NCBI GenBank assembly: GCA_027859235.1
Contig: JAQIBE010000109.1
Location: forward strand, 1 to 37,820
DNA length: 37,820 nucleotides
Source of the DNA: Desulfobulbaceae bacterium
GTDB lineage: Bacteria > Desulfobacterota > Desulfobulbia > Desulfobulbales > SURF-16
Reading direction: 5' to 3'
The notes beneath the pieces were generated by a model that did no database searches, had not been told where the DNA came from, and was given only the letters and a program-made list of their open reading frames with translations. Position 1 is the stretch's first letter. Each line of letters begins with the position of its first letter. Below are positions 3,576 to 7,796 of the stretch, in pieces. Made by a program: the position numbers and the translations under genes.

Positions 3576-4724
3576 TTAATGGTTAATCTGGAAAAAAGGC
3601 GCGGCAATAGCGGCCACATTGGTGCTGCACCCGCCCTTGCTGAGAATATCTTTAATCTGGCCAAGGGCCTGTTTCTGGATGGTGTATGGCGCTGATTCCG
3701 GCCACAGTTCCAGGAGTGCGGCACTGATATTATCGGCAGTGGCCTCTTGCTGGAGTATTTCTGGGACAATTTTCTGGTCGGCAATGAGATTGACCAGGGA
3801 TACGTATTTGACCTTGATGAAATGAAGGCCAAGCTGATAGGTGAGTGGTGCGATGCGATAGGATACAACCATGGGCACCTGCAATAATGCCAGTTCCAGG
3901 GTTACGGTTCCTGACGCGGCCAAAACAAGATCACAGCTCTGCATCAACTCGTAGCGATCCCCTGCAACCACTTGCACATCAAGGTTACATGTCTCAAGGC
4001 CATTTTTGTATAGATCTTCATACTGCAGGGATGGGGCCAGAGGCAGGAGGAAGACCGTGTCTGGATGCTGTTCTTTTATCTTTTGCGCCGCCTGTAAAAA
4101 GAGGGGGAGCATGGAGCTCACCTCTTTACGTCTTGAACCAGGCAGCAGGCCGATATATCGTTTCGTCCCAGGGATCTTATGTTTTTCAAGAAACTCTTGC
4201 TTTGTCAGGGTTAATCCCATGTGGTCAGCCAGTGGATGACCAACATAATCAACATCAAAACCAAACTGGGCATAGAACGGTTTTTCAAAGGGCAGGATCA
4301 CGGCCATACGATCCACCAGCCGTTTGATTTTATGGACCCGGCCGCTCCTCCAGGCCCAGACCTGCGGGCTGATAAAGTAGAGGACAGGGATGCCGAGTTT
4401 CTTGGCCTTTGCCGCCAGCATCAGGTTGAAATCAGGATAATCAATGAGGATGAGGAGTTGCGGACGTGACCCCTTGAGCCGTGCATGCAGGATCTTCTGG
4501 GCCCGGATAATACCCGGAAGATGGGTGAGAACCTCAACGATGCCAACCACTGCCATGTCAGCGGCATCCACCAGGATTTCCATTCCCGCAGCCTTGAGGG
4601 CTGTGCCCCCCATGCCATAGGCCTTCAGGTTGGTAATCTGTTTCTGCAGCGCGGTTAAAACCCGGGCGCCGTGCATATCTCCGGAGGCCTCTCCAGAGAC
4701 AATCATAACCTCATTGTTTGGCAT
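3576..4724 (-). CDS. lpxB: Lipid-A-disaccharide synthase
   Basis: Peripheral inner-membrane glycosyltransferase (GT19). It joins UDP-2,3-diacylglucosamine to lipid X to form the lipid A disaccharide. The product is 382 residues, usual for LpxB. The N-terminus has MIVSGEASGDMHGA, then YGMGGTALKAAGMEIL and ADMAVVGIVEVL. In the second half lie ISPQVWAWRSGRVHKIK and the GLLPGSRRKEV donor-binding loop. An in-frame GTG at 4730 has a better-placed AAGGGG ribosome site (eight bases) than the ATG at 4724 (14 bases), so the protein may start two codons earlier. The longer open frame upstream overlaps the neighbouring oxidoreductase and is not coding. It is the last gene of a four-gene minus-strand run, with a 10-nt gap to the oxidoreductase. 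Confidence 0.95.
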   Translation of the reverse strand: MPNNEVMIVSGEASGDMHGARVLTALQKQITNLKAYGMGGTALKAAGMEILVDAADMAVVGIVEVLTHLPGIIRAQKILHARLKGSRPQLLILIDYPDFNLMLAAKAKKLGIPVLYFISPQVWAWRSGRVHKIKRLVDRMAVILPFEKPFYAQFGFDVDYVGHPLADHMGLTLTKQEFLEKHKIPGTKRYIGLLPGSRRKEVSSMLPLFLQAAQKIKEQHPDTVFLLPLAPSLQYEDLYKNGLETCNLDVQVVAGDRYELMQSCDLVLAASGTVTLELALLQVPMVVSYRIAPLTYQLGLHFIKVKYVSLVNLIADQKIVPEILQQEATADNISAALLELWPESAPYTIQKQALGQIKDILSKGGCSTNVAAIAAPFFQINH

Positions 4725-4734
4725 ATTCACGTGG

Positions 4735-5682
4735 TTATCCCCTTTGCCGGCGGATCTGCTGAACCACTTCCAGGGCAATGGCCAACGCCTGCCTCCCCTC
4801 TTCCCCGGAAACCTTTGGTTTTGACCGATCCCGGACACAGCCGATGAAGTGGCGTAACTCTGCCAGGATCGCATCACCCTGATGGGGGAATGGGAGATGC
4901 ATGGATTCTTCAATTGGATAGCCACGAGCATCAAGGTCTGGCTGTCTTTCCGTGAAGGTAATATCCTTTTTGGTGTAATCCACCGAGATGGAACCACCCT
5001 CTTGATGAATGGTGATTTGCCTGAGATCCTGTTTGGCAATTCTTGAGGCGGTGACTGTGGCAGAACAGCCGTTTTCAAAAATGAGCTGGGCAGTGGCAAC
5101 ATCGGTTGACGATGTCACCACAGAGGCGCCCAGGGTATTAATCGTTTTCAACGGAGATTTGGCAATACTGCGAATAATGTCGATATCATGGATCATAAGG
5201 TCCAGCACCACATCAACATCATTACCCCGGGGATTATAACGATTAAGCCGGTCAGACTGGATATAGATGGGTGACTTGAGGTAATGCTCCATGGCCAGAA
5301 TGCCGGGGTTGAACCGTTCTAAATGGCCAACCTGTAAAATACAGCCCTTCTGCTCAGCAAGGGCAACCAGCTCATCCGCCTCTTGCAGGGTCACGGTGAT
5401 GGGTTTTTCCATCATCACATCAAGCCCTGCCCTTAAACAGTCCATCCCGACCTGATGATGAAAGGTGGTGGGGGTGACAATGGAAACGGCCTCCACCTGT
5501 TTAATGAGCTCATGGTAATCCGTAAATGGGGTGGTATGGCAGAGGTCGGCTATTTCCTGGGCCCTGGCAGCGCTTGTGTCAAATACCCCAACAAGCTCGG
5601 TATCGTCCATATCTCTGTATTTCTGGGCATGGAAATTACCAAGATAACCCACACCAATGACGCCCGTTTTTATTTTTTTCAT
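4735..5682 (-). CDS. Gfo/Idh/MocA-family NAD(P)-dependent oxidoreductase, lpx-cluster type
   Basis: Rossmann-fold sugar oxidoreductase of 315 residues. The nucleotide loop GVIGVGYLGNFHAQ is at residues 7-20. The conserved lysine of the EKPITVT motif is near 93, LQVGHLERFNP near 115-125, and the DLMIHDID metal/catalytic segment near 160-167. Proteins of this kind sit beside lpxB in many Desulfobacterota. The related GnnA oxidises the 3-OH of UDP-GlcNAc so that GnnB can aminate it, giving amide-linked lipid A. That role is plausible here from position, but no GnnB-type aminotransferase is visible in this window. No strong ribosome site precedes the ATG. It is 18 nt after the upstream gene. Family certain; substrate inferred. 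Confidence 0.85.
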   Translation of the reverse strand: MKKIKTGVIGVGYLGNFHAQKYRDMDDTELVGVFDTSAARAQEIADLCHTTPFTDYHELIKQVEAVSIVTPTTFHHQVGMDCLRAGLDVMMEKPITVTLQEADELVALAEQKGCILQVGHLERFNPGILAMEHYLKSPIYIQSDRLNRYNPRGNDVDVVLDLMIHDIDIIRSIAKSPLKTINTLGASVVTSSTDVATAQLIFENGCSATVTASRIAKQDLRQITIHQEGGSISVDYTKKDITFTERQPDLDARGYPIEESMHLPFPHQGDAILAELRHFIGCVRDRSKPKVSGEEGRQALAIALEVVQQIRRQRG

Positions 5683-5700
5683 GATATTTCTGTAAGGGTA

Positions 5701-6243
5701 TTAGGATTTCTGTTGCAGCGCCATTTTCTTAAGCTCAAAACCTTTCTGGATTAAGGTCACTGTTTCAAGAAAGAGTTCCTCGGCAAAGGGTGCAAAACGC
5801 TTGTGAACAAGGGCATCTGTATTGTCTTGGATAGCATGATCCACAAAGGTTTCGGCAAGGGCGGAGAAGACATCCTGACCCGCCTCCTCCTGACCTTTAA
5901 AGACCTTGAAGTAGAGGCGGAGACGCTCCTGAAAAATAGCCAGAATCTTCTCCTCCAACGCCTCCTCCTGTTCTTCGGAGACATCGGCAGGTTGTGCTTC
6001 AACAATGCGGGCAACAATACGTTCAACAATGGTTTTATGAAATTGTTCTAATAATTCGGCTGATTCTTCAACCTCTGCATTATCCTGGATAAAGGCGATG
6101 GTGGTGATGAAAATAGCAAATACCTCGAATTCATTGAGGATAAAAGATACTTCTGCAAATTCATCATTATTAAAAAAGTAGATGAGCCGGGATGAGATAA
6201 AATCATGGGCGGCAATAAGAGGTTCAAAATCATTTTCATTCAT
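5701..6243 (-). CDS. Unrecognised acidic all-helical protein (180 aa)
   Basis: I do not recognise this family. The 180-residue product has no signal peptide and no convincing membrane helix. An aromatic/hydrophobic N-terminal part (residues 15-55, many Phe and Ile) is followed by a strongly acidic, Glu/Ala-rich stretch near 85-105 and more amphipathic helices. Composition predicts a soluble helical bundle. Its ATG overlaps the transporter's stop codon (ATGA), which implies translational coupling. It precedes the oxidoreductase and lpxB by 18 nt. The real-gene call rests on this tight packing, the plausible protein composition and the lack of any better frame. A role tied to the transporter or to lipid A assembly is possible but not shown. 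Confidence 0.8.
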   Translation of the reverse strand: MNENDFEPLIAAHDFISSRLIYFFNNDEFAEVSFILNEFEVFAIFITTIAFIQDNAEVEESAELLEQFHKTIVERIVARIVEAQPADVSEEQEEALEEKILAIFQERLRLYFKVFKGQEEAGQDVFSALAETFVDHAIQDNTDALVHKRFAPFAEELFLETVTLIQKGFELKKMALQQKS

Positions 6244-7796
6244 ATCAGGAGGTCATCCTCTTCAGGTTGGTGTTCACGTTGGAGTTTGCGTTTATCCCAT
6301 GGATACAGGGTGAAAGCCAAGGCCACTGTTCCGCAGAGCAGCAATGATCCGCCACCATACATGAGCAGTTGCGGGGTTGCATATCCTCCATAATTCTTTT
6401 GGAGGTCTCCTGTAACAGAAAAATACACAAGGCAGAGTAAAATTACCGGGGTTGTATATCTTACACAGAAATTCCACACCAGCGGAATGGCAGAGCCCGA
6501 GGTGTTGAGATGGTTTCTTATGGTTGCTGATTTTAAAATCCAGCCGATGATTAAACACTCGAGAAGGCCGCCGACAATAAGCCCATAATGGGTGATGAAA
6601 TGATCAGCAATATCCAGGAGATAAAGGCCGCCATTGGTGGTGAAAATAAGGCTGCCCATAAAACCTGCCCCACATACTCCTGTAACAACTTTTTTCCGAG
6701 GCCAATTAAATTTATCTGTCAATGAGCAGGTAAAGGCCTCGATGAGTGATACCCCGGAAGTCAAACCGGCTATGCAGAGGATGAGGAAAAAAAGAATTCC
6801 AAAGAGATGATTATAGGCAGGAAGCAGGGAAATGGCTGTGGGATAAATGACAAAGGCCAGTTGCGGCCCACCTTTAATGGCCTCTGCAAAGGGAAGACCC
6901 TGGGTCTTGGCCATGAAACCGACCACACCAAAGACGGTGAGGCCGGCAATGAGTGAATAGCAGCAGTTGACAATGCAGGTGATCAGGGCATTCCTGCCTA
7001 TATTATTTTGTTTCGGCAGATAACTGGCATAGGTGATCATGATGCCGAACCCCAGCGACAGGGTGAAAAATATTTGGCCAAAGGCGGCAACCCAAACCTC
7101 CCGGGCATTTATGCGTGATGCAACATCTGCCGAAAATATGTTTATTTTAGACCAGTCAGTGGAAAGATAATGGCTGAAGATCGCCTCTTTTGCACCATCC
7201 AGGGTAAGGGTCCAGCCGACAAGGATAAAGGTTAAGATCAGCAATGAAGGCATAAAGATCTTACTGGCCTTTTCAATGCCATGTCTGACATCACGAAAAT
7301 TAATGAGCCAGCAGAGGAACCAGCATAGGGCCGTTGACATGAGAATCTGCGGTCTAAAGCCGCCAATTTCTGCAGCAGATGGGGAGATTGCCAGAAAATC
7401 GTTGAAAAAGAAGGCCTGCGGGTCATTGCCCCAGGCCATGGTTATTGCATAGACCAGATAGTTGAAGCACCAGCCTATGATGACGGAATAGTAGAGCATG
7501 ATGCCAAACATAGCCACAACAGGCATCCACCAGCCAAGCCATTCATACCTTGGACCTATGCGTCTGAAACTGAGTGGCGAGGAGCCCTTTTCCTGATGGC
7601 CTAAACCGTACTCGAGCAGTATGATGGGTAACCCCGCGACAATAAGGGCGACAATATAGGGAACAAGAAAGGCTCCTCCTCCATATTGATGGGCCATATA
7701 ACTGAAGCGCCAGACATTGCCAAGGCCAATGGCTGAACCAATGGCCGCAAGAAGAAACCCCATATTTGATTGCCATTGTCCACGGCTACTACTCAT
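6240..7796 (-). CDS. Sodium-dependent SNF-family (neurotransmitter:sodium symporter) transporter
   Basis: LeuT-fold secondary transporter that imports an amino acid or related amine with sodium. The 518-residue product opens with the signature NMGFLLAAIGSAIGLGNVWR (residues 11-30), which contains the sodium-site glycines. About a dozen hydrophobic helices follow. FGQIFFTLSLGFGIMITYAS near 255-274 matches transmembrane segment 6. Bacterial SNF proteins are usually 440-520 residues. GAGG-type purines (GAGGA) lie about nine bases before the ATG. It heads the run that ends in lpxB. The stop overlaps the start of the unknown helical gene. Substrate is unknown. Confidence 0.92.
   Translation of the reverse strand: MSSSRGQWQSNMGFLLAAIGSAIGLGNVWRFSYMAHQYGGGAFLVPYIVALIVAGLPIILLEYGLGHQEKGSSPLSFRRIGPRYEWLGWWMPVVAMFGIMLYYSVIIGWCFNYLVYAITMAWGNDPQAFFFNDFLAISPSAAEIGGFRPQILMSTALCWFLCWLINFRDVRHGIEKASKIFMPSLLILTFILVGWTLTLDGAKEAIFSHYLSTDWSKINIFSADVASRINAREVWVAAFGQIFFTLSLGFGIMITYASYLPKQNNIGRNALITCIVNCCYSLIAGLTVFGVVGFMAKTQGLPFAEAIKGGPQLAFVIYPTAISLLPAYNHLFGILFFLILCIAGLTSGVSLIEAFTCSLTDKFNWPRKKVVTGVCGAGFMGSLIFTTNGGLYLLDIADHFITHYGLIVGGLLECLIIGWILKSATIRNHLNTSGSAIPLVWNFCVRYTTPVILLCLVYFSVTGDLQKNYGGYATPQLLMYGGGSLLLCGTVALAFTLYPWDKRKLQREHQPEEDDLLI

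Follow-up and report, generated by a model that had tools for sequence, protein, structure and literature searches.

An unnamed family of acidic helical proteins, possibly Cbp3-like in fold, encoded in a transporter-lpxB gene run of the Desulfobulbales

A Desulfobulbaceae bacterium encodes, between a transporter gene and an oxidoreductase-lpxB pair, a 180-residue protein (here UNK) that belongs to a so far unnamed protein family present in scattered families of its phylum. Our reading of the whole, to which we give a probability of about 0.5, is that this is a helical family resembling the Cbp3 fold, probably of chaperones or adaptors, which is co-transcribed here with lpxB and has no dedicated role between import and lipid A. 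An initial annotation of this DNA had proposed that UNK might connect amine or amino acid import with lipid A modification. That idea fared poorly, because the partner genes are exchanged or lost and comparable neighbourhoods exist without UNK.

The gene run and the proteins it encodes

The window, i.e. the whole stretch of DNA that was analysed (37,820 nucleotides of contig JAQIBE010000109.1; genome G000), contains four genes on the minus strand in the order SNF, UNK, gfo, lpxB:

6240..7796, minus strand: SNF transporter gene, 518 aa (PF00209 and NF037979 matches, PDB relatives)
5701..6243, minus strand: UNK gene, 180 aa (no database sequence match; AF2 model; family members)
4735..5682, minus strand: Gfo/Idh/MocA oxidoreductase gene (gfo), 315 aa (PF01408, NF040723, PDB 7bvj)
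3576..4724, minus strand: lpxB, lipid-A-disaccharide synthase, 382 aa (TIGR00215, PF02684)

The stretch first singled out was 4735-7796, and lpxB lies just beyond it. The overlap and spacings reported there were correct: the SNF stop and the UNK start have an ATGA in common (a 4-nt overlap), UNK and gfo are 18 nt apart, and gfo and lpxB 10 nt. A promoter between the genes had been named as an argument against a common unit. Consensus scans found neither sigma-70-like nor terminator-like sites at the junctions (other promoter types are possible), and the whole region has fewer promoter-like sites than its shuffles (3 vs a mean of 7.1). Of the 15 loci of the host's taxonomic family (f1) with a transporter upstream, SNF-type or other, 13 have it -4 to 24 nt from UNK, and in the remaining two the distance is 123 and 173 nt; the gap between UNK and the next gene, measurable at 17 loci, ranges from -7 to 76 nt. 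The SNF-UNK-gfo-lpxB run is real and operon-like. Simple co-transcription, the more modest proposal of the initial annotation, thus has the packing in its favor, and UNK is probably co-transcribed with its neighbours.

The SNF transporter and LpxB are ordinary representatives of their own families. The former matches PF00209 with 349.7 bits (cut-off 27), which places it in the SNF/NSS family, and NF037979 with 102 bits (cut-off 50); its closest PDB relatives are SLC6 transporters and bacterial 4us3. Judged by these matches, the product of 6240..7796 is predicted to be an SNF/NSS-family Na+-dependent amino-acid or amine transporter. LpxB is assigned by the TIGR00215 equivalog (328.3 bits, cut-off 190.25) and also matches PF02684 (352.6 bits).

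The oxidoreductase has the NAD-binding domain of the Gfo/Idh/MocA family (PF01408, 115.8 bits) and appears closest to the GnnA type of UDP-GlcNAc 3-dehydrogenase, to which its nearest named model and solved relative both point. Its score with that model (NF040723) is 227.8 bits, however, half the curated cut-off of 450, and the relative (PDB 7bvj, E 7.7e-55) is labelled simply oxidoreductase. In bacteria gnnA and gnnB form a pair, the gene for the partner aminotransferase adjoining that for the dehydrogenase. No DegT-type aminotransferase (PF01041) is encoded on the window's contig, all matches in this genome lying on other contigs, which leaves a route to 3-amino lipid A no more than a possibility here.

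Elsewhere in the window, positions 40-1395 and 1425-2498 hold a Na+:alanine symporter gene and, next to it, a leuB-like gene whose product has an isocitrate/isopropylmalate dehydrogenase domain. The symporter is a second amino-acid carrier a few kb from lpxB, and the same block is also close to lpxB in several relatives.

Distribution and neighbourhoods of UNK

UNK is a real gene that is kept by purifying selection. This follows from its 74-75% identity in a sister species (the one other genome of the genus in the set analysed) with dN (0.18) well below dS (1.18) for the same pair, and from its presence, as one copy each, in 18 of the 22 f1 genomes. Its description as an unrecognised, acidic, helical protein of 180 residues proved apt: the net charge is -21, the model is all-helical, and protein and profile searches gave no meaningful match in Pfam, NCBIfam, PHROGs, PADLOC or PDB. 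Weak Pfam matches of individual members (BIG2_C, FliG_M, MRAP and others) vary between members and were rejected as chance. Residues F42, F68 and Y111 are conserved in an alignment of 30 UNK sequences.

In the other families of the order UNK had no match (0 of 236 genomes). A DNA search with a 13-row alignment subset found it in five MAGs labelled Desulfobulbaceae, Deltaproteobacteria or Pseudomonadota, including isolate BM506. More distant relatives were matched by an 18-row UNK profile in two families of the same phylum, f21 (E about 1e-18) and f103 (E 2e-12); extended profiles added further f21 and f103 members and, among 395 genomes sampled from the phylum, brought in no additional family. 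In f21 the UNK relative adjoins a PHP-domain gene in nearly all loci, with a 7TMR-HD gene nearby. The PHP-domain gene, of ~290 aa, almost always follows the UNK relative, and the pairing is conserved (L180-L189, L155-L157). The f103 neighbours vary (ManC-like, CdhD-like, nitroreductase, radical SAM, AMP-binding, ABC exporter). No transporter-lpxB link was found at f21 or f103 loci within the stretches examined. Homologues lacking conserved linkage to the transporter or lpxB had been expected to speak against a connection; these two families supply them, and f1 in the main does not.

Does UNK have a constant partner within f1? It nearly always lies between a transporter and gfo or lpxB, but it also persists without SNF, without gfo, or away from lpxB. 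The arrangement of the window recurs in eight other genomes (G016, G004, G012, G014, G019, G013, G007 and G021). Two have SNF-UNK-lpxB, with the oxidoreductase missing between UNK and lpxB (L019 7850-9552 in G001; L023 8548-10241 in G008) and no gfo match anywhere in either genome; in G001 this is a recent loss beside lpxB, the window's genome, of the same genus, having kept gfo. In three others (G003, G002, G010) a Liv-type ABC operon, its genes assigned KHMGF from length and sequence, precedes UNK and gfo, followed by lpxB where the contig permits. In parts of f1, and also in family f11, such a branched-chain amino-acid operon takes the place of SNF ahead of gfo-lpxB (L025 8531-14024; L026; L030; L146 6090-12306; L138 1-8799). 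UNK has no upstream transporter in G005, G017 and G020, and G006 has an SNF-UNK pair alone, gfo-lpxB being on a different contig. No single partner gene is constantly adjacent to UNK in f1. Dedication of UNK to the SNF transporter was rejected because the transporter is replaced or lost in f1 loci, and an obligate tie to the oxidoreductase because G001 and G008 lack gfo.

These arrangements bear on one alternative, that UNK is an accessory of the lipid A step, binding one of two peripheral or cytosolic proteins, LpxB or the oxidoreductase, and thereby modulating or stabilising the step, its linkage to transporters being incidental. In 17 of 18 f1 members UNK precedes gfo or lpxB; it holds this position in the three genomes without a transporter and the three with a Liv operon, and directly adjoins lpxB in the two where gfo was lost. 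We nevertheless consider an accessory of this kind somewhat unlikely: SNF-UNK is separate from gfo-lpxB in G006, two f1 genomes (G009, G015) and the 236 others of the order manage without UNK, and in the loci examined no f21 or f103 homologue adjoins lpxB.

The f1 genomes without UNK are four, two of genus g9 (G009 and G015) and two incomplete ones (G011 and G018). In the G015 contig the oxidoreductase starts ~125 nt after SNF, with no UNK between; in G009 the contig with gfo-lpxB extends 155 nt upstream of gfo before it ends, and the genome, which is 97% complete, yielded no UNK. The retention of SNF and gfo in a sister genus that has no UNK argues against a functional bridge. In the LpxB tree f1 is one clade (99/98) with two halves. 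There g9 groups with g5-g7, with weak support (87/66), and loss of UNK in g9 is therefore likelier, though not firmly so, than separate gain. In the SNF tree the g5/g6/g7/g9 half has a transporter lineage of its own, and the g1/g4/g8 transporters instead cluster with SNF proteins from other families (97/98); the split concerns the SNF genes of L032, L033, L034, L035, L024, L027 and L141. Two SNF lineages within one host family reflect either transporter replacement in the same slot or old paralogy. Taken with the gene orders, the tree means that what stands upstream of UNK has varied between SNF genes of two lineages, a Liv operon and no transporter at all.

Outside f1 the neighbourhood is found with no UNK in it. 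SNF and gfo-lpxB are divergent in seven genomes (G034, G024, G226, G056, G027, G039, G249) and run in the same direction in G030; SNF-lpxB is found in G023 and G064, and Liv-gfo-lpxB in G050 and, with an intervening VWA-domain gene, in G041. Throughout the order an oxidoreductase gene generally adjoins lpxB, in agreement with the initial annotation, which gave Gfo/Idh/MocA genes beside lpxB as known from Desulfobacterota. A transporter beside gfo-lpxB is therefore a feature of the whole order that does not depend on UNK: the same three genes are adjacent in many families, whereas UNK is inserted in f1 only and SNF elsewhere mostly points away from gfo-lpxB. Often a gene of ~1230 residues stands behind the divergent SNF in other families (L119, L121-L126, L145), YhdP-like in the one copy scanned (L119). 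SNF and this gene, usually divergent from gfo-lpxB, constitute an order-wide envelope gene cluster.

Predicted fold and comparison with Cbp3

Structure prediction of UNK alone, one of the checks first suggested, gave an AlphaFold2 model of six helices (pLDDT 89.6, pTM 0.86). Foldseek found no significant match to it in PDB or among viral models, and 6rwt, the Cbp3 homologue of Brucella abortus, was not among its 50 best rows. VIA, a slower structural aligner applied to Foldseek's 1000 best chains, put 6rwt first (Z 11.5, 155 residues, rmsd 3.6 A; next row 5.8). The same entry came first for a second AlphaFold model, that of an f103 homologue ~20% identical to UNK (Z 9.0, 154 residues, rmsd 4.0 A; next 5.7), the two models being not fully independent since their alignments have rows in common. 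Z values of 11.5 and 9.0 are below the level considered safe for helical proteins, where a common helical arrangement can yield such scores. The models make a Cbp3-like fold possible, a good lead rather than proof, and even a fold in common would not in itself establish a function.

The resemblance to the Cbp3/UQCC1 ubiquinol-cytochrome c chaperones (PF03981; 6rwt) thus lies in the best structural match of both models (~155 residues), a similar size and an all-helical build. UNK differs from them in having no detectable PF03981 sequence similarity: among the Pfam families listed for UNK members this one did not appear, and neither the window's own genome nor the 395 phylum genomes had a locus scoring over the 21.5-bit cut-off. 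Nor are the gene neighbours of UNK respiratory. In yeast, Cbp3-Cbp6 is bound at the tunnel exit of the mitoribosome and keeps hold of newly made cytochrome b (PMC12242767, PMC10132202). Four UNK carriers (G000, G016, G505 and G632) have no PF00033 cytochrome b; UNK therefore cannot be simply a cytochrome b chaperone. A broader proposal would make UNK a Cbp3-like chaperone family of bacteria without a bc1 complex, whose clients would be transporters or lipid A enzymes instead of cytochrome b, and the Cbp3 fold an older, more general bacterial assembly-factor fold; we regard it as unlikely.

Could UNK instead aid the folding or insertion of the adjoining polytopic transporter, whichever amino-acid transporter fills the slot? 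The analogy would be to Cbp3, which assists cytochrome b, likewise a polytopic membrane protein, and which the UNK model may resemble in fold; a transporter is directly upstream in 15 of 18 f1 loci (three kinds, all of amino-acid type by family), and G006 retains the SNF-UNK pair only. Such assistance nonetheless seems highly improbable, given that UNK is first in the run, with no transporter, in three f1 members, that Liv-gfo-lpxB and SNF-gfo-lpxB exist without UNK in other families, and that f21 and f103 members adjoin non-transporters.

It is also conceivable, if decidedly doubtful, that UNK is a passenger which has nothing to do with its neighbours and is not a chaperone, for instance a regulator of helical build or a protein that binds a small ligand; the match to Cbp3 would then reflect a common helical arrangement. 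The patchy spread over three families of the phylum, the varied f103 neighbours and the lack of a significant Foldseek match would fit, as would the lower VIA rows, which are TetR-type ligand domains; against it, 6rwt is far above all other rows for both models.

Proposed role and meaning

On the preferred reading, a chaperone or adaptor with no dedicated import-lipid A role, the UNK gene most likely entered an existing transporter-gfo-lpxB neighbourhood in the common ancestor of f1. It would be read from the same message as its neighbours, with translational coupling through the ATGA overlap. Its product would be a single-copy, cytosolic, soluble, acidic six-helix protein with a fold closest to that of the Cbp3 (UQCC1) chaperone, most likely a small chaperone, assembly or adaptor protein whose conserved helical face holds a partner protein. 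The existence of the gene, its distribution and neighbourhoods, the helical prediction and the 6rwt best match are shown here; co-transcription and a chaperone-like role are what we infer. The position beside lpxB would reflect co-expression with envelope genes. A dedicated role linking amino-acid import to lipid A is probably not what UNK has, because transporters change, gfo has been lost, g9 is without UNK, the UNK-less neighbourhood is order-wide, and the f21 and f103 neighbours differ. The conserved f1-wide position leaves room for a local UNK function with lpxB.

What deserves attention is UNK itself: a family of helical proteins, as yet without a name, whose fold may be Cbp3-like. Should the fold match be false, UNK would still define a protein family that has so far had no name, and would offer a clear example of operon adjacency without shared function. 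Should it be true, a chaperone fold of mitochondria and alphaproteobacteria, where it serves cytochrome b assembly, would also be present in Desulfobacterota without a sequence signal, and its occurrence in genomes without the usual client would turn the original job of Cbp3-fold proteins into a testable question.
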